Assembly (NCBI GenBank): GCA_030431515.1
Contig: JAUIIX010000025.1
Location: forward strand, 1-41,869
From: a bacterium
GTDB lineage: Bacteria; Bacteroidota; Ignavibacteria; Kapaibacteriales; UBA2268
Reading direction: 5' to 3'
DNA length: 41,869 bases
This document shows positions 3,475 to 25,985 of the stretch, one piece after another. Within the stretch, counting starts at the first letter, position 1, and each line of letters starts with the position of its first letter. The notes beneath the pieces are model-generated. The model ran no database searches. It was not told where the DNA came from and was given only the letters and a program-made list of their open reading frames with translations. The position numbers and the translations under genes are program-made.

Positions 3475-4827
3475 TTAGATTTTAGTAAATCCATAATCAA
3501 AAGCAAAGTTGATCCCAATCGCTATAAATTTATTATATAATTGATTGTCGCTATACATTGTACAATAAACTGAAACTGGATATGGATAATTATTTAATGT
3601 ATATGAAGCCATCGCAAAATTATTCAAGTCATAGATATTGCTCTCTCCTGTCAAATTTTTACCATAGGATAATCGAAGTTTATTATTTACTTCAAAGTAT
3701 ATTCCTTGGTAGTTATCTACTTTTGCAACTAATTTCCTTGTTCCAAAATCATAATAATTATTAAATTTATAAAATATTCCTACTCTATTTGAGAATTTAT
3801 TATAGTCGTCATCGATAGTAATATTAAAATGATAATCAATATTCATTATTACCCCTAAATTACTATATTCTATTGCTTTATCCATATTAATAGTGTAGCC
3901 GGTGAATATGCTTGCTCCAAGTGCCATATTTCTATCTAATTGTTTATTAAATGCTTTTTTATTTTTTTCAATCCAATCTTTTTTATCTTGGATTAAATTA
4001 TCAATTGCTGCTAATTCCTTTGTTTTTTGTCCTAATTCATTAATTGTCTCTTCTAAATCTCTTTTTACATTTTCTGAGTTTTTAAAGAAATCTTGATATT
4101 CTTTTTTCTTATATTCAAATTCACTTAATTTTACATTTAATTTTGAAACTTCATCATTATAAAAATTATTTATATAATTTTCTATTGAATCTAAACTTCT
4201 TATTTTATTATTTTTATAAATTTCAAATTCTATTTTCATTGCGTAAAATTTTTCTAATTCGCTTTTATTCTTTTCATATTGACTTAGTCTATACATTATA
4301 TCATAAATATCATTTTTTGTCCAATATACAATTTCATTTGGAGCTAGATTATTATATTTATTTAGCTGACGAATTAAATCTTTAGTTCTTTCATTATAAT
4401 CACTTGGTTTTATTAAATCATTGTTAATTATTAAATTATTCACTGTTTTTTCAGCTTCTTTTTTAACAACTGGGTTTTCCTTTTCTTTTGGATTAATAAC
4501 ATCAAAATATATTGGACCAATAACTTTACGATTTTTTATTTTATCAAATAACATAAAATAACCACTTTCTTCGGGACTTGCATAGACCATAAAATCACTC
4601 GACTTTATTTGATAAAATTCTTTCAGTTTATTATTAGTATTATAATATTCTATCCTATAATTAATAGGATTATATACTGTTCCAAATATTCTAATATTTT
4701 CGCCATAGTTAATTTTAGCTTTATCAACATGGAATTCTATATTAAATTGCTGTTCTTTCAGCAATTCGTTTAGGTCTGTCGCGCAAGATGTAAGGATTAC
4801 AATTAGCGATAAATAAATATATTTCAT
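3475..4827 (-). CDS. Predicted lipoprotein with coiled coil and beta-rich C-terminal domain
   Basis: A 450-residue protein of unknown function. It starts MKYIYLSLIVILTSC, a lipoprotein signal with the lipid-anchored Cys at residue 15, so it should be attached to a membrane. Residues about 180-300 are rich in Lys, Glu and Leu with heptad-like spacing and probably form a coiled coil. The last ~150 residues alternate polar and aromatic residues (YSNLGVIMNIDYHF, VGIFYKFNNYYDFG, FIAIGINFAFDYGF), suggesting an outer-membrane beta-barrel or beta-sandwich. GAG lies 7 bases before the ATG in the context GAGTTTATTATG, and a TAATTTTG promoter -7 element reads on the minus strand at 4865-4858. It is monocistronic and flanked on both sides by the dispersed repeat. 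I do not recognise the family. Confidence 0.8.
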   Translation of the reverse strand: MKYIYLSLIVILTSCATDLNELLKEQQFNIEFHVDKAKINYGENIRIFGTVYNPINYRIEYYNTNNKLKEFYQIKSSDFMVYASPEESGYFMLFDKIKNRKVIGPIYFDVINPKEKENPVVKKEAEKTVNNLIINNDLIKPSDYNERTKDLIRQLNKYNNLAPNEIVYWTKNDIYDIMYRLSQYEKNKSELEKFYAMKIEFEIYKNNKIRSLDSIENYINNFYNDEVSKLNVKLSEFEYKKKEYQDFFKNSENVKRDLEETINELGQKTKELAAIDNLIQDKKDWIEKNKKAFNKQLDRNMALGASIFTGYTINMDKAIEYSNLGVIMNIDYHFNITIDDDYNKFSNRVGIFYKFNNYYDFGTRKLVAKVDNYQGIYFEVNNKLRLSYGKNLTGESNIYDLNNFAMASYTLNNYPYPVSVYCTMYSDNQLYNKFIAIGINFAFDYGFTKI

Positions 4828-15089: not shown

Positions 15090-15524
15090 ATGAAAAAATA
15101 TTTTTTATTTGAGCCAGAAACTGATATAAATAAACATTGGGAATACCTTTTAAACATTATAATTGACCAAGCTGATTTCGTAGAATTTAACATTTTATGG
15201 CACGATTGGATGATGCAAAAGGAGTTTATCCTACTAAAAAAGTTCAAAGTGGAAGAATTTGAGAACAGAAAAAAGATATTTATGTCTAATAAATCAGTTC
15301 GTTATAAACTGACTCCAGAAGTCAGAGAATATGTGCTAAGTAAGAAATTCACTGACTGGCAACATCATTTTGTAGAAGACCCATCTTTCCTAAGAAAAGG
15401 AAAAGAATTTATTGCTTGCCGTTCCAACAAAGGTAGAATTTGCCTCTTACTTTCCGAACCCGAAAGACTATTCCTTATCGAGCAGGGCTTAGATATTTGG
15501 TTTGAGTTAGAGAGTAAGTATTGA
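15090..15524 (+). CDS. Hypothetical protein whose 3' end is repeated as cassette boundary
   Basis: A 144-residue soluble protein rich in Trp, Phe and charged residues (MKKYFLFEPETDINKHWEY... to FELESKY). There is no signal peptide or membrane segment, and I do not recognise it. Its last ~73 bases (from 15452) recur almost unchanged at 18850 and 21504, where they are fragments without the rest of the gene. It thus marks the left edge of the cassette array. It is divergent from the lipoprotein at 15041, with 48 bases between the starts. Confidence 0.7.
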   Translation: MKKYFLFEPETDINKHWEYLLNIIIDQADFVEFNILWHDWMMQKEFILLKKFKVEEFENRKKIFMSNKSVRYKLTPEVREYVLSKKFTDWQHHFVEDPSFLRKGKEFIACRSNKGRICLLLSEPERLFLIEQGLDIWFELESKY

Positions 15525-15832
15525 AGAACTTAGAAAATCTTATCAAAAAATAAAAATTATTTGGAATTGTCAAATATTAAATATAGTTTGCAATTAGTAG
15601 TTTTGCAAAAATAAAAAAATAGATTCACAAAAAGACAATTTTAGGAAGTTGGGTAATATTTGCTCAACATATTTTAATATTTAATTTGAGGTGTTTTATG
15701 TTTCAAAACGTTAAGGGTAATTATACTCTTCCAAAATCGCCTAACTCTATTACGGGGGGGGGGTCTTACGCTCTTTTATTCCAGCAATTGTGATTGCATT
15801 GTCAATATTTTTTGCAACTAATGTAGTGGCAA
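15452..15832 (+). repeat. Cassette boundary and leader, copy 1
   Basis: Holds the last 73 bases of the gene at 15090, a ~170-base non-coding leader and the first codons of protein A. It is almost the same as 18850-19222: one difference in the first 76 bases, a diverged patch around 15530-15595, then near identity through the start codon, the G run and the signal peptide. A possible promoter lies within it (TAGTTTTG at about 15599-15606, no good -33 match). Similarity stops after the signal peptide. Confidence 0.9.
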
Positions 15833-16356
15833 CTGCATCTTGCTCTTGTCCATCAGGTTTCACACCAAAAAGTTTTCAATATACTTTAGCAACTACAAGC
15901 TGTGAGATTACGATAAATTATTGTACAAATTGTTCTCCTACTGGGCATACTTCAGTTTATTTATGTGATATAGTTGTTCCCTATGGGAATTGTACTGGCA
16001 TAACAGTTGATGCTGCTTTCTGGCAAGAGATTAAGGAAGCTACACTTATTGAGAATATGGAAGATTGTAACTTAGGTATGCCTCCATGTCCTGGTAGAAT
16101 TCAAATGGATTTTTATAAAGGAGATTGTAAAAGGTTAGTTTATGATGACTATTATGAAACTATTACTATTGAAGATTGTGATGAAGAAGGTGGTACTTGT
16201 GTAAATTATTATTCAATATGCTGGGATCCAATTACACAAGATTGGGATTTTGATTTTTATGATTATGATGTTACAGATCCGGGAGAATGTGGTCCAGCAT
16301 TACCTAAACTAGATGAAGAAGACAGATTCTTACTATGCTTTACTACATGCAACTAA
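15698..16356 (+). CDS. Secreted Cys-rich protein A1, out of frame at a poly-G run (phase OFF)
   Basis: ATG at 15698 follows GAGGTG by 4 bases and opens MFQNVKGNYTLPKSPNSITG. A run of ten G (15754-15763) comes next, and in this frame a stop follows at 15791 after 31 codons. In another frame the DNA after the run encodes LRSFIPAIVIALSIFFATNV, an excellent signal peptide, leading into a 180-residue mature domain with many Cys (CSCPSG..., YCTNCSP, CFTTCN) that ends at 16356. With 11 or 8 G the two parts join; 11 G gives 219 residues. The mature domain is a distant relative of A2 but has no T9SS sorting domain. It is probably exported to the periplasm or beyond. Function unknown. A consensus-length error in the run is possible, but the run itself is conserved in both cassettes. 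Confidence 0.8.
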
Positions 16357-16415: not shown

Positions 16416-18812
16416 ATGAAACTACCTCTACTACTTTTATTTTTTATAACTTCACTTTTTGCTCAATACCCTAAATCATTTTATGACACTGATTTTGAAA
16501 ATGGCTTTTTTCCAATTGAAAATACTAAATCAAAAATTCTAAATATTGGTACTGATAGTTTAATTTTTTATGGTGAACAAGGTTTAATGTTAAAAACTTT
16601 TGACGGAGGAAAAAGCTGGGTTCAAGATTTTTCTGGTACTTATGGTAATATTCTTAAATTGTTAAAATATAAAAATTCAATATACGGAATTTCTACTTTT
16701 AGAGAATTTATGTTTTCAGATGATAATGGTGAGTATTTTAATTTTACGAAATTAGATTTTATACTTTCAAGTTTTACAATTTTAGAAGATAACATCTATG
16801 TTACTACATATCCTAATGATACTATGCTTATTTCTACTGATTTTGGAAAAACATTTCAAGCTCAAAAAGTAATTACAGATACAATTATTGATATTTTTTC
16901 ATTTGAAGATAAATTAATAATTGTTAATTTTAGTAATGAATTATATTATAGTAATAGTGATGCATCAAATTGGACAAAATTAGATTTACCAGAATTAACT
17001 GATTGGATAATTAGTAAAAAAGAGGATAATATTTATTTGAATGACAAGAAATTTATAGCAAAATTAAATTCTAATTTTACTTGGCAAATTGATACTATAT
17101 TAGATAATGAAAAAGATTTTAATTTTTATCCTATTGATAATGGTTATTATATTTACAAAAATCAATTTGATAAACAAAATACAAAAATTAGTGATAAGTA
17201 TATTGTATTTTTTAAATATGTAAAAGAAAATAATAAATTTAATATTACAATTTTAGATACACTAAAACCATTAACATTTGATAGTTATTCTGTATTTAAT
17301 AATGCAGGAATTTCATTTGTAATAAACGACTTAACAATAAATAATAACAATGCTTATTTCTCATTTTATTATAATAAATTAATAAAATATGAAAATATGA
17401 ATGAATTGAAAATAATAAATCAAAAATATATGTCAACAAGACAAAGATGTGATATTATATTAAAGGAGGATTATTGGTTAAGAATTAATAATAGTTCTAC
17501 TCATTTATTCAAATCAACAGATAAAGGAGTATCATTTTCTCCTTTAAATAGCATTGTTGAAAAATTTAGGATTGATACACAAAGTGGGGATACTTTAACT
17601 GATTATAGATTTCCAGAATACGGCTACTTTTATTTTAAAGATGAAAATAATTTTATATTATCTTTAGATGCTACTTTTAAAATTAAAGAGCATGGAGTTT
17701 CAACTCATTTTGGTTCACCGGTTTCATGGGCAATAACAAAAGATGGTGGTAAAACTTATGATATTATAAGAGATTCAATCAGAAAGCACTTCAAATTAGA
17801 TGAATCACCTTCAAAATCTTTGATGATACCACAAAGCCATATGGAAAATAAATATTTATTTTCACAATATCATGAAGGAGATAATTATTTTTATTTATTA
17901 GACACAAATTATTCTATGAGTCAAGTAAGTAAAATAGACAGTTCTGATAGAATATTCTGTTTTTATGATAAAGTCAATAATTTAACTTGGTGTAAATCAA
18001 TATATAGATATGATTTAATTAGCCAAACGGACACTATTAATTTAGAAGACAATAAATTTTATTATACAAAAGATGGAATAAATTGGATTGAAGTTTACAA
18101 TGTAACTTTAGATAGGTATTCAGATTCTGAAATAGGAATATCAAATGAGAATGAAATATTTATAGTTGCAAATAAAGATAAACCATATATTTACCGTTAT
18201 GATATAGAAATGAATAAAATAGACTCTTTAGGATTAAATACTATTTATAAAAAGATTTATTTTCATAATGACTTTTATCAAAATAAATTATTTCGTTTTG
18301 AGCAAGATAAATTTTATGGTGATTGGTATGAAATAATTGATACATTAAATATTAGAAGGCAAGCCGTTGTTAATTTTGAAATTAATGGTAATGATATCAA
18401 CGTTAAAACCCACTTAAATAAAATTAGCACTCAGTCTTATTTAATTAATCCTTTTTATGAGAATGCAGATTTTTATTACTCAAAATCAATATTTGACGGA
18501 AATTTTCTATATAAAAGAATGGATGAAAATCGATATAAGTATTATACTTCAGTAAACACGAAAGATATAAACAATGAAATGCTTGCAATTGCCTACCCCA
18601 ACCCAGCAAATAAGGGAAATATAGTTAATATCGAATTAGAGGAATTAGCCAACAAAATCGAAATCTATGATTTACTTGGGAATAAATTGCAGACTATAAA
18701 TGAAAATAACTTTAATTATCATATAAATACTGAAGGATTCAAATCTGGTATGTATTTAGTAGTTATTCAATTTGAGAATAAAAAGGAGTTGACTAAATTT
18801 GTAGTGGAGTGA
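16416..18812 (+). CDS. T9SS-secreted Asp-box (BNR) repeat protein B1
   Basis: A 798-residue exported protein. Signal peptide MKLPLLLLFFITSLFAQ; ATG preceded by GGAG at 7 bases. The long central part has recurring Asp-box motifs of a beta-propeller: KTFDGGKSW (about 60), FSDDNGEYF, ISTDFGKTF, KSTDKGVSF, ITKDGGKTY, YTKDGINW. Such propellers occur in sialidases, sortilin-like and photosystem assembly proteins; no catalytic set is evident here. The last ~75 residues (AYPNPANKGN...ELANKIEIYDLLGNKL... SGMYLVVIQ...KFVVE) are a T9SS type A sorting domain, so the protein should cross the outer membrane and be released or anchored at the surface. It lies 59 bases after A1. Its sorting domain is nearly identical to that of B2 while the propeller has diverged. 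Confidence 0.85.
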   Translation: MKLPLLLLFFITSLFAQYPKSFYDTDFENGFFPIENTKSKILNIGTDSLIFYGEQGLMLKTFDGGKSWVQDFSGTYGNILKLLKYKNSIYGISTFREFMFSDDNGEYFNFTKLDFILSSFTILEDNIYVTTYPNDTMLISTDFGKTFQAQKVITDTIIDIFSFEDKLIIVNFSNELYYSNSDASNWTKLDLPELTDWIISKKEDNIYLNDKKFIAKLNSNFTWQIDTILDNEKDFNFYPIDNGYYIYKNQFDKQNTKISDKYIVFFKYVKENNKFNITILDTLKPLTFDSYSVFNNAGISFVINDLTINNNNAYFSFYYNKLIKYENMNELKIINQKYMSTRQRCDIILKEDYWLRINNSSTHLFKSTDKGVSFSPLNSIVEKFRIDTQSGDTLTDYRFPEYGYFYFKDENNFILSLDATFKIKEHGVSTHFGSPVSWAITKDGGKTYDIIRDSIRKHFKLDESPSKSLMIPQSHMENKYLFSQYHEGDNYFYLLDTNYSMSQVSKIDSSDRIFCFYDKVNNLTWCKSIYRYDLISQTDTINLEDNKFYYTKDGINWIEVYNVTLDRYSDSEIGISNENEIFIVANKDKPYIYRYDIEMNKIDSLGLNTIYKKIYFHNDFYQNKLFRFEQDKFYGDWYEIIDTLNIRRQAVVNFEINGNDINVKTHLNKISTQSYLINPFYENADFYYSKSIFDGNFLYKRMDENRYKYYTSVNTKDINNEMLAIAYPNPANKGNIVNIELEELANKIEIYDLLGNKLQTINENNFNYHINTEGFKSGMYLVVIQFENKKELTKFVVE

Positions 18813-18849
18813 TTAATTCATTTATACTTAATCAATGACCTTCAATACA
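18594..18849 (+). repeat. Repeated T9SS sorting-domain segment, copy 1
   Basis: From TACCCCAACCCAGCAAATAA onward, the DNA coding for the B1 sorting domain plus ~37 bases after its stop matches 21247-21503 closely. Matching continues into the boundary fragment at 18850. Confidence 0.9.
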
Positions 18850-19222
18850 TTCCGAACCCGAAAGACTATTCCTAATCGAGCAGGGCTTAGATATTTGGTT
18901 TGAGTTAGAGAGTAAGTATTGAAGAGTTTATAAAATATTTATCAAAAAATAAAAATTATTTGGAAATATAAAATATTAAATATATTTTGCAATTAGTAGT
19001 TTTGCAAAAATAAAAAAATAGATTCATAAAAAGACAATTTTAGGAAGTTGGGTAATATTTGCTCAACATATTTTAATATTTAATTTGAGGTGTTTTATGT
19101 TTCAAAACGTTAAGGGTAATTATACTCTTCCAAAATCGCCTAACCCTATTACGGGGGGGGGGCTTACGCTCTTTTGTTCCAGCAATTGTGATTGCATTGT
19201 CAATTTTTTTTGCTACTAATGT
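18850..19222 (+). repeat. Cassette boundary and leader, copy 2
   Basis: Second copy of 15452-15832. The first ~73 bases are a fragment of the 3' end of the gene at 15090, without its body. The leader, GAGGTG ribosome site, start codon, ten-G run and signal-peptide codons follow. The spacer 18813-19096 contains only this. Confidence 0.9.
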
Positions 19223-20118: not shown

Positions 20119-21465
20119 ATGTTTCTATTTTTTATGTTTTTTAATATCTTATTTGGAATTAATGAAATAAAGATTTTAAAACCTACTAATGAACTTCCAT
20201 TGACAAACCTTACCCATAATAATGAAGGTATTATTATGGGTAGAGGTATAAAAGTGATTGAAGTAGGTAATTTAAATTTAATTTATAATCTTATTTCGAA
20301 AGATAATGGTTATACCTTTGATACAGTAGGAGTTTATAGACATATTCCAAATCCTAAAAATCCGACAAGCAACTATCATAAGACTATTTCATTTCAAAAT
20401 ATATTTATTTTTGCAAGTGATTATACAAGTTTGTTAATAACAAATGATGAAGGGAAAAGCTTTGATTCTTTGATATTATCAGAAAGTAAGAAGTTTTATG
20501 CTTGTACATATTCTTTTTCTCAAAATGATACTAATGCTCTATTATATTCAAATTCGAATATGAATCAATACGGTTTTCCTGCATTTGATTTGTTTTATTC
20601 AACTGATGGATTCAATAACTATAAAGTAATAGATTTTGATATATTTAAAGATACTTTTAATATTTTAAGAGATATGAAATTAGAAAACTCTAATATAAAT
20701 CTTTATAGCACCTTATACATTAACGAAGATTCAAGTTATTTTAATATTCACTCTTATGATATTGAAAATAATAGTTACAATAAAGATTCAATATTAGTCG
20801 ATTTTCATAATTTTAAACATATAACTACAATAGATAATAATTATTATCTTTATATTTTAAAAATAAAAGAAATCGTAAAAGGTGGAGCTAATATTTATAG
20901 TAAATTATTAGTAAAATTAAATAAAGACGGATATGAAATTATCGATACTATTAATGTACAAAAAGGAGGAATTGAAGTATTCTCATATTATGATGGTACT
21001 TCAATATATTCATTAACTTATGGTAAACTTTCCATATATAATACAAAGAAAAACGAATTAGATTCTTTAAATTTTCCAATTAGTTTTTTTGCTACAAATG
21101 CTTGTGCTATTTCATTTCAAGAAGGATACTCATGGTATAATGAGGAAACAGTTAAATTAATGATTTCTTCTGGTAGTAATTGTGTCTTTGAAATTGATTT
21201 AAAAGCTATTTTAAGTATTGAGAAAAAAGATACTAAATCAAATATTTACCCCAACCCAGCAAATAAGGGAAATATAGTTAATATCAAATTAGAGGAACTC
21301 GCCAACAAAGTCGAAATCTTTGATTTGCTTGGCAATAAATTGCAGACTATTATAGAAAATAACTTTAATTACCAAATTAATACAGAAGGATTAAAATCTG
21401 GTATATATTTAGTAGTTATTGAATTTGAGAATAAAAAGCAAATAACAAAATTTGTGGTGGAGTGA
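20119..21465 (+). CDS. T9SS-secreted Asp-box repeat protein B2
   Basis: A 448-residue exported protein, a shorter relative of B1. The signal peptide MFLFFMFFNILFGINE follows AAGGTAACA before the ATG. Asp-box-like motifs are seen in SKDNGYTF, TNDEGKSF and STDGFNNY. The final ~75 residues (IYPNPANKGN...VEIFDLLGNKL...SGIYLVVIE...KFVVE) are a T9SS type A sorting domain almost identical to B1's. It begins 13 bases after A2, so A2 and B2 are one transcript; if A2 is out of frame, ribosomes may still reach B2 through its own site. No enzymatic function can be assigned. Confidence 0.82.
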   Translation: MFLFFMFFNILFGINEIKILKPTNELPLTNLTHNNEGIIMGRGIKVIEVGNLNLIYNLISKDNGYTFDTVGVYRHIPNPKNPTSNYHKTISFQNIFIFASDYTSLLITNDEGKSFDSLILSESKKFYACTYSFSQNDTNALLYSNSNMNQYGFPAFDLFYSTDGFNNYKVIDFDIFKDTFNILRDMKLENSNINLYSTLYINEDSSYFNIHSYDIENNSYNKDSILVDFHNFKHITTIDNNYYLYILKIKEIVKGGANIYSKLLVKLNKDGYEIIDTINVQKGGIEVFSYYDGTSIYSLTYGKLSIYNTKKNELDSLNFPISFFATNACAISFQEGYSWYNEETVKLMISSGSNCVFEIDLKAILSIEKKDTKSNIYPNPANKGNIVNIKLEELANKVEIFDLLGNKLQTIIENNFNYQINTEGLKSGIYLVVIEFENKKQITKFVVE

Positions 21466-21503
21466 TTAATTCATTTATACTTAATCAATGAACCTTCAAT
21501 ACT
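21247..21503 (+). repeat. Repeated T9SS sorting-domain segment, copy 2
   Basis: Matches 18594-18849 over the sorting-domain codons, the stop and GATTAATTCATTTATACTTA after it. Confidence 0.9.
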
Positions 21504-21580
21504 TTCCGAACCCGAAAGACTATTCCTTATCGAGCAGGGCTTAGACATCTGGTTTGAGTTAGAGAGTAAGTATTGAAGAG
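21504..21580 (+). repeat. Cassette boundary fragment, copy 3 (right edge of the array)
   Basis: About 75 bases equal, apart from two changes, to the 3' end of the gene at 15090. Unlike copies 1 and 2, no leader or A gene follows, so the array ends here. Confidence 0.9.
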
Positions 21581-21592
21581 CATAATATCTCA

Positions 21593-22135
21593 TCATAACC
21601 AATATAATAAACTAAAGTTTAAAGATGGAGCAAACCAATTCTTATTTTCATTTGCATAAATAGCAGATACTACACCAACACTTGTACGAATTACATATTT
21701 ATCAGTTAATTTAAAATCTTTACCACCTCTAAGACTTAAATAATAGAAATAATTAGTTTTCTTATCAAAAAGAGTTTCAAATTTATCAAAATGCGTTAAC
21801 CCAACTGAGAAATTCCACGAACCATATTTAAAATTTTCACTCTTTTCACCAAAATAATAATATAATTCAGATGAAAAAGCAAATTGATCCATTGGAATTG
21901 TTATATAAGTTAAATCTCTAAGAGCAGGAGATGCTCCAATTTTAAATGAAAAGAATATACTTTTTTTCAAATGAATTATTGGACCTAAATAGATAATTGG
22001 AGGATTAGCAACCCCAAACTCTATTCCGAGATTTTTTTCTTTAACTTTAAAAATACTTTCATTATTACTCGAATCAATTTCATTTGAAACAAGTGAAGAT
22101 GATGTTAAAAATATTAATATAATTAGTGTTTTCAT
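21593..22135 (-). CDS. Predicted outer-membrane beta-barrel protein
   Basis: A 180-residue protein with signal peptide MKTLIILIFLTSSSLVSNE and alternating hydrophobic strands rich in Phe and Tyr (FFSFKIGASPAL, AFSSELYYYFGE, GSWNFSVGLTHF, YFYYLSLRGGKDF, APSLNFSLLYWL), ending in an aromatic residue as barrel proteins often do. No specific family is recognised. It begins 3 bases after the lipoprotein gene upstream and is convergent with the cassette array. Confidence 0.7.
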   Translation of the reverse strand: MKTLIILIFLTSSSLVSNEIDSSNNESIFKVKEKNLGIEFGVANPPIIYLGPIIHLKKSIFFSFKIGASPALRDLTYITIPMDQFAFSSELYYYFGEKSENFKYGSWNFSVGLTHFDKFETLFDKKTNYFYYLSLRGGKDFKLTDKYVIRTSVGVVSAIYANENKNWFAPSLNFSLLYWL

Positions 22136-25785: not shown

Positions 25786-25859
25786 GCGCCGGTAGCTCAG
25801 CTGGATAGAGCAACAGCCTTCTAAGCTGTGGGTCATAGGTTCGAATCCTATTCGGCGTA
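25786..25859 (+). tRNA. tRNA-Arg (anticodon TCT)
   Basis: A 74-base cloverleaf: acceptor GCGCCGG pairing with TCGGCGT (G-T pairs at both ends), D arm with AGCTCAGCTGGATAGAGC, anticodon stem ACAGC/GCTGT around CTTCTAA (anticodon TCT, AGA codons), T arm ATAGG-TTCGAAT-CCTAT, discriminator A. CCA is not encoded. Confidence 0.95.
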
Positions 25860-25875
25860 CTAATCTAAAAAACTT

Positions 25876-25968
25876 GAGTCAAGCTAAGTGGCTAAGACAA
25901 ACCCAACTCCGTCAGGTCTGGAAGGAAGCAGCGGTCAGTTTGCTCTTAGGGTGCTGGCTTGACTTTTT
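25876..25968 (+). ncRNA. ffs: Signal recognition particle RNA (4.5S type)
   Basis: The conserved domain IV is seen as GTCAGGTCTGGAAGGAAGCA then GCGGTCA at about 25911-25936, with the GGAA tetraloop and the Ffh-binding asymmetric loop. The ends pair as GTCAAGC (25878-25884) with GCTTGAC (25957-25963), followed by a T run that should act as terminator. It binds Ffh and guides ribosomes making exported proteins to the membrane. It lies 16 bases after the tRNA and just before RNase G. Confidence 0.93.
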
Positions 25969-25985
25969 TATTTTTTAAAGGTTCT

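Follow-up and report, generated by a model that had tools for sequence, protein, structure and literature searches.

G runs between start codon and signal peptide in a Kapabacteria genome: a probable phase-variation switch of secreted proteins

Why should a well-supported start codon be separated by a run of ten G from the signal peptide of a long Cys-rich open reading frame that lies in another frame? The locus that raises this question, A1, is situated in a 41,869-nt stretch of DNA that was analysed as a whole and is termed the window herein. Surface and secreted proteins are the usual targets of phase variation, and poly-G phase variation is best known from the host-associated bacteria Campylobacter, Helicobacter and Neisseria. 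We therefore examined the A1 start region, the remainder of its genome and related genomes for the position, length and reading frame of such runs, and for the nature of the proteins encoded behind them.

The A1 start region and its second copy

A first-pass annotation of the window had described A1 as a GAGGTG site, a start codon with 18 codons, ten G, and an out-of-frame signal peptide continuing into a Cys-rich ORF, and direct reading of the sequence confirmed this layout, with 18 codons and then ACG preceding the run (Table 1). As assembled, the start frame ends after the 31 residues claimed (MFQNVKGNYTLPKSPNSITGGGSYALLFQQL, stop at 15791-15793), and the accompanying arithmetic, according to which 8 or 11 G would join the start to the secreted protein, is right. 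The signal-peptide frame (LRSFIPAIVIALSIFFATNVVATA) extends from TTA at 15766 to a stop at 16354-16356 and is closed on its 5' side by a stop codon ahead of the G run. By direct reading, no ATG was found close to the signal peptide in this frame, and the earliest listed start, a GTG at 15790, is inside the hydrophobic core and has no visible Shine-Dalgarno (SD) site. The same annotation had considered a ten-G run unlikely by chance, and this held: the window is AT-rich (24-33% G+C), a shuffled window would hold on average 0.09 matches to eight G, both strands counted, and the window has no G runs of 6-9 and exactly two of 10. Across the 3.55-Mb assembly there are three runs of nine or more G/C, namely A1, A2 and one on contig C5. 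The C5 run, of nine, has no comparable gene start; it was set aside as a switch candidate, its surroundings being phage-like by impression.

The second ten-G run of the window, which is absent from the first-pass annotation, is found 3.4 kb downstream of the first, in a gene referred to as A2. The stretch 18939-19222 repeats the A1 region, with 97% identity over the 224-nt leader and 94% identity over 70 nt after the run. In both genes an SD site and ATG are upstream, the tract length decides whether the body is joined to them, and no other good start was seen. The tracts of A1 and A2 are of the same length, G10; A2 has one base fewer after the run, so that the two genes come into frame at different tract lengths, and the dead-end peptide of A2 at ten G has 40 residues. 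A search of the source genome for the leader cassette found no copy beyond these two, and a search for the leader DNA in 60 genomes, including the source genome, returned elsewhere just five matches, of 24-57 nt.

Table 1. Features of the tandem A-B region of the window
Feature	Position	Strand	Remark
Repeat including 3' end of 144-aa gene	15448..15556	+	further copies 18846-18954, 21500-21608
Shared leader cassette copy 1: upstream region, ribosome-binding site, ATG, 18 leader codons, G run	15540..15763	+	97% identical to 18939-19162
Terminator-like hairpin, 9 pairs, presumed 5' untranslated region	15648..15668	+	identical copy 19047-19067
A1 start codon and leader MFQNVKGNYTLPKSPNSIT	15698..15753	+	SD GAGGTG 15688-15693
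A1 G10 tract, proposed phase switch	15754..15763	+	
A1 body: predicted signal peptide and Cys-rich secreted protein, 196 codons	15766..16356	+	off start frame as assembled
B1: 798 aa, weak BNR/propeller similarity, type IX secretion system (T9SS) type A sorting domain	16416..18812	+	TIGR04183 48.7 bits, cut-off 23
B1 3' end repeat (sorting domain)	18594..18838	+	91% identical to 21247-21491, end of B2
Shared leader cassette copy 2	18939..19162	+	97% identical to copy 1
A2 start codon (ATG 19097) and leader MFQNVKGNYTLPKSPNPIT	19097..19152	+	SD GAGGTG 19087-19092
A2 G10 tract, proposed phase switch	19153..19162	+	
A2 body: predicted signal peptide, Cys-containing protein, T9SS sorting domain, 313 codons	19164..20105	+	off start frame as assembled
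B2: 448-aa T9SS cargo	20119..21465	+	sortilin-like propeller similarity just under cut-off

Each A gene is followed by a B gene, so that two A-B units stand in tandem in the window, alike at their ends and unlike in their middles. The BNR match of B1 is below its cut-off; B1 has its own start and is perhaps co-transcribed with A1. The repeat present in three copies flanks both units and would be the mark of a tandem duplication. Two other A-B units of the source genome, on contigs C155 and C133, have plain starts; the B gene on C133 has a sorting domain, and that on C155 had no sorting-domain match at E 0.01.

The hairpin listed in Table 1 sits about 30 nt 5' of each start codon, where it is possibly a second control layer or the end of an upstream transcript. 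Two terminator-like hairpins were found in the region versus 1.7 expected from shuffles, and the folds of the 100 nt upstream had z-scores of -1.3 for the A1 copy and -2.75 for the A2 copy. An Rfam search found nothing at the leaders, and matches in a sigma-70 promoter scan were too common to be usable.

Besides the C5 run, five other loci of the source genome have runs of 7-8, and one alone, A3, fits the same design. A3 is encoded on the minus strand of contig C138 (L263), where a 28-codon leader of different sequence is followed by G8 at 3939-3946 and then by a signal peptide resembling that of A1 and A2; the body comprises 360 codons and includes a sorting domain, and B3 (480 aa), also with a sorting domain, follows. 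Like those of A1 and A2 at G10, the SD-preceded start of A3 is off frame at G8. A further ATG, overlapping the run and in frame at this length, lacks a visible ribosome-binding site. The region upstream of A3 forms a hairpin that is no better than shuffles (z -0.87).

Placement, length and frame of the runs in relatives

Runs of nine or more G/C occur in 41 of 54 genomes of the family. When their placement was assessed, runs with flanks under 350 nt were excluded (11 of 80), and 19 of the 69 usable runs were found after a ribosome-binding site and ATG (at most 45 codons) and before an ORF of at least 100 codons. In 200 random placements within the same loci the average was 2.06 and the highest count 6, such that about 2 of the 19 positives are expected by chance; the other 50 runs do not fit the arrangement. 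The loci sampled comprised 40 of at least 55 listed runs of 9+ outside the source genome and 40 of the 55 listed runs of 10+, with 6 of 13 runs of 10+ fetched for genome G030, and 20 further places were taken from contiguous assemblies. A small comparison set of 21 runs, drawn from six genomes that belong to the order but not to the family, contains a single fit versus 1.4 at random, and the family differs from this set (Fisher P 0.02). The sole fit of the 21 (L259, G055) is a G10 in frame that leads from a start codon to a secreted-looking protein. A one-contig genome, G067, has four C/G runs of 10-12 (L109-L112) in a conserved repeated context with no recognised start codon, and these could be promoter-type switches.

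Within the genus, an A2 homologue was identified in genome G002 (E 2.4e-46). It begins with ATG and 23 codons, followed by G7 and a signal peptide in another frame, and is therefore off; the B gene beside it has a sorting domain. The remaining same-genus genome has an A1-family gene that starts at a contig end consisting of ten G. For a membrane protein encoded near the A genes, the nearest named matches include several Candidatus Kapabacteria / Kapaibacterium MAGs, at up to 42-43% identity, which makes this group of Bacteroidota the most likely home of the window.

The first-pass annotation had pointed to a length fixed among relatives as evidence against a switch; the lengths differ. The A2 homologue has G7 and A3 has G8. 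Two leaders of one genome have C13 and C11 and are 96% identical over the upstream 100 nt, and two leaders of G030 have G12 and G10 with 94% identity upstream, one being ON and one OFF. Six G030 leaders with a common last stretch before the run have lengths of 10, 10, 10, 10, 12 and 13. In these six gene starts (L140-L145) the leader ends in TTSNVVETTT before G10-G13 and the bodies differ; by eye, a repeat is apparent on both sides of the run.

We assembled 24 runs of this design, comprising the 19 placement positives together with A1, A2, the G002 homologue, L029 and A3, from 12 genomes and with paralogues included. Twelve of these need a shift of -1, ten need +1 and two are in frame. Neutral slippage would leave one third of the alleles ON; the observed proportion, 2 of 24, is lower (P 0.005 on the assumption of independent runs, several being paralogues). 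L235, whose in-frame G9 by eye falls in a methyltransferase-like motif of a cytoplasmic protein, is not part of the count; if it is added, ON alleles are 3 of 25 (P 0.015). The requirement of a ribosome-binding site with at least four matching bases removed L038, L041 and L049 (in frame, weaker sites) and the off-frame L141 and L144. L042 (G020), an A1-family locus in which C12 follows an upstream start codon, is not counted because its signal-peptide frame has an extra stop after the tract. The placement test allowed 50 open upstream codons, a limit that might hide ON alleles, and a looser upstream limit with a ribosome-binding site of at least four matching bases revealed no in-frame run beyond those already counted except L235. 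The OFF excess could reflect selection for silence in most cells or, alternatively, transcriptional slippage.

Sequencing is notoriously error-prone at long G runs, and the tracts could be sequencing or assembly errors, the true lengths being in frame and the genes intact, with the signal peptide preceded by a Gly-rich stretch. At least 7 of the 55 listed runs of 10+ are within 30 nt of a contig end, versus 0.17 expected, which signals either trouble at the runs or real heterogeneity, as mixed tract lengths and poor sequencing of G runs would both produce such ends. Against error, the short tracts G7 and G8 are off frame too, off-frame runs recur in 12 assemblies with near-equal needs for +1 and -1, and even with a wrong consensus the presence of runs at this place in several genes of an AT-rich genome would need explanation. 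We consider this explanation improbable.

G runs are also slippery, and ribosomal frameshifting or RNA-polymerase slippage might decode the off-frame templates, in which case the tract would serve a regulated or leaky decoder and there would be no genetic switch. This would account for the 22 of 24 runs that are off in the DNA, and slippage of RNA polymerase could yield several lengths. The shifts needed are of both signs, however, and the shift required differs between A1 and A2 despite their common leader. Since no single programmed direction fits shifts of mixed sign, programmed frameshifting of one direction was rejected, and decoding in general appears slightly less probable than sequencing error.

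The proteins encoded behind the tracts

To judge whether the frame after the A1 run is a genuine gene, we turned to its homologues. Matches at E<=0.01 were obtained in 12 of 54 family genomes, source included, and 18 homologous loci align with the A1 body. With the exception of L093 and L094, these loci (16 of 18) have a Met directly 5' of an N-terminus that resembles a signal peptide, which indicates that the frame after the A1 run is a genuine gene. None of the 18, two paralogues from the source genome among them, has a G/C run longer than 5 between 200 nt upstream and 300 nt inside the frame, and thus the switch is not required by the protein family as such. A profile built from the A1 homologues does find run-bearing loci, namely L079 (G001, E 8e-19), L042 (4e-17) and L029 (G033, 3e-7). 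As these carry a run before an A1-family protein, the family has acquired or kept runs in several genera.

A1 had no Pfam or NCBIfam match, including to a C-terminal sorting domain, and is called secreted from its N-terminal hydrophobic segment alone. The TIGR04183 sorting domain scored above 23 bits in all five of A2, A3, B1, B2 and B3, with 30.2 bits for A2. The A1 and A2 bodies are divergent, with a best local alignment of 26% identity over 193 columns, shared signal peptide included. Profile comparison gave probabilities of only 60% for the A1 and A2 families and 8% for A1 and A3, and a single superfamily is therefore not claimed. Structure prediction without an alignment produced poor models of both mature A1 (174 aa, mean pLDDT 52.5) and most of the A2 body (290 aa, mean pLDDT 37.6).

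Across the 24 tract genes, the median Cys content of the bodies is 4.3%, versus 1.0% in 31 control ORFs from the same loci (P 3e-5). A strongly hydrophobic segment near the N-terminus exceeds threshold in 19 of 24 tract genes versus 14 of 31 controls (P 0.01), in a scan of the leader plus 60 residues for positives and 80 residues for controls that slightly favours the positives; in L045, L070 and L142 a hydrophobic N-terminus is not clear. Judged by sequence, such Cys-rich products with hydrophobic N-termini fit secreted or surface proteins.

These data also bear on whether the genes are decaying, i.e. frameshifted pseudogenes in a recently duplicated pair. While A1, A2 and A3 are all off frame from their SD-preceded starts, their bodies are otherwise open over 196, 313 and 360 codons, the Cys-rich family that includes A1 is conserved, the design of A2 recurs in its same-genus homologue, and in the 24 cases the frame change is at a G/C run, other genera included; decay is accordingly very unlikely. 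Least credible of all is that the leader encodes a short upstream peptide of its own and translation of the secreted protein begins at another, non-ATG codon, with the run being no switch, for although the overlapping ATG of A3 and an earlier ATG in L068 (G016) are in frame, the signal-peptide frame of A1 and A2 lacks an ATG close to the signal, their first GTG lacks a visible ribosome-binding site and cuts the hydrophobic core, and the A3 ATG, being at the head of the run, would itself switch with its length.

We conclude, with a probability of roughly 0.8, that A1 and A2 are contingency (phase-variable) genes controlled via a slipped-strand G tract. The first-pass annotation had called A1 a probable phase-variation switch, and the length differences, the enrichment of placement in the family and the real A1 family support that claim. 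Slipped-strand mispairing would change the length of the G tract between the start-codon leader and the signal peptide; some lengths would join the start to the secreted protein, and others would lead to a dead-end peptide. We infer that the tract slips in living cells and acts as a reversible switch, and that the products are exported, A1 by its signal peptide and A2 and A3 by type IX secretion. Loss of MutS was rejected as a cause of slippage, as the source genome encodes a full-length MutS; this would slow slippage, yet phase variation remains compatible with it.

A cassette on divergent payloads, and known systems

Because the conserved ends of the units (leader 97%, sorting domain 91%) surround divergent middles, exchange of payloads would be possible in addition to switching. 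The leader cassette may have been copied to different payloads by duplication or recombination. A wider proposal, which we advance tentatively and regard as possible rather than probable, is that Kapabacteria have a family-wide phasome made up of Cys-rich and type IX secreted proteins, with recombination copying a mobile cassette onto different payloads. Such a cassette would consist of promoter, ribosome-binding site, leader, G/C tract and signal peptide. If the phasome reading is true, the OFF excess would mean that in most cells the majority of these secreted or surface proteins stay silent, a pattern to be expected if free-living bacteria hedge their bets against phages or grazers.

The mechanism is of a known kind. 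A Campylobacter study treats tracts of 7+ G, in genomes with a G+C content of about 30%, as hypermutable (PMC6321876), and the lengths G10, G10 and G8 of the source genome and G7 of the same-genus homologue all reach its 7+ G/C cut-off (PMC6321876). The Campylobacter phasome, as that study describes it, is alike in its AT-rich genome, its coding G/C tracts of 7+ with varying lengths, and the presence of tractless homologues alongside (PMC6321876). It differs in that the host here belongs to the Bacteroidota, the cargo is type IX and Cys-rich, one leader cassette precedes divergent bodies, and ON alleles are only 2 of 24, below a third. Neisseria opa has a repeat within the leader-peptide coding sequence (PMC3745409) and is similar in this respect and in having several copies with the same 5' switch (PMC3745409). 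The opa repeat is the pentamer CTCTT (PMC3745409), whereas the Kapabacteria genes have a mononucleotide G run, and unlike in opa, the A1 and A2 run precedes the hydrophobic core, after an 18-codon leader. A survey of prokaryotes reports that poly(A)/poly(T) tracts are enriched at 5' gene ends (PMC2831843); the tracts here are G/C runs of 7-14 in AT-rich genomes, as opposed to the poly(A)/poly(T) of that survey (PMC2831843).

In the literature, the match for slipped-strand mispairing together with Bacteroidota was a short-tandem-repeat atlas (PMC12699852), which notes a high repeat density in Bacteroidota (PMC12699852). Type IX secretion and slipped-strand also co-occur in a published paper. 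A search for Kapabacteria with phase variation found no paper, the spelling Kapaibacterium and most subscription journals being outside its range, and among the titles listed there was no report of such tract genes in the Kapabacteria group. Three aspects look new: the host group, the cargo of type IX and Cys-rich proteins, and the repeated use of a single promoter-leader-tract-signal cassette before divergent payloads.

If the phase-variation reading is true, its recurrence in uncultured Kapabacteria suggests that random switching of secreted proteins is used beyond the host-associated setting. Automatic annotation could then overlook or shorten such genes, since their reading frame is interrupted in the OFF state and some contigs stop at a tract. 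Elsewhere in the window, at 25786-25969, a tRNA gene is followed directly by a small signal-recognition-particle RNA.
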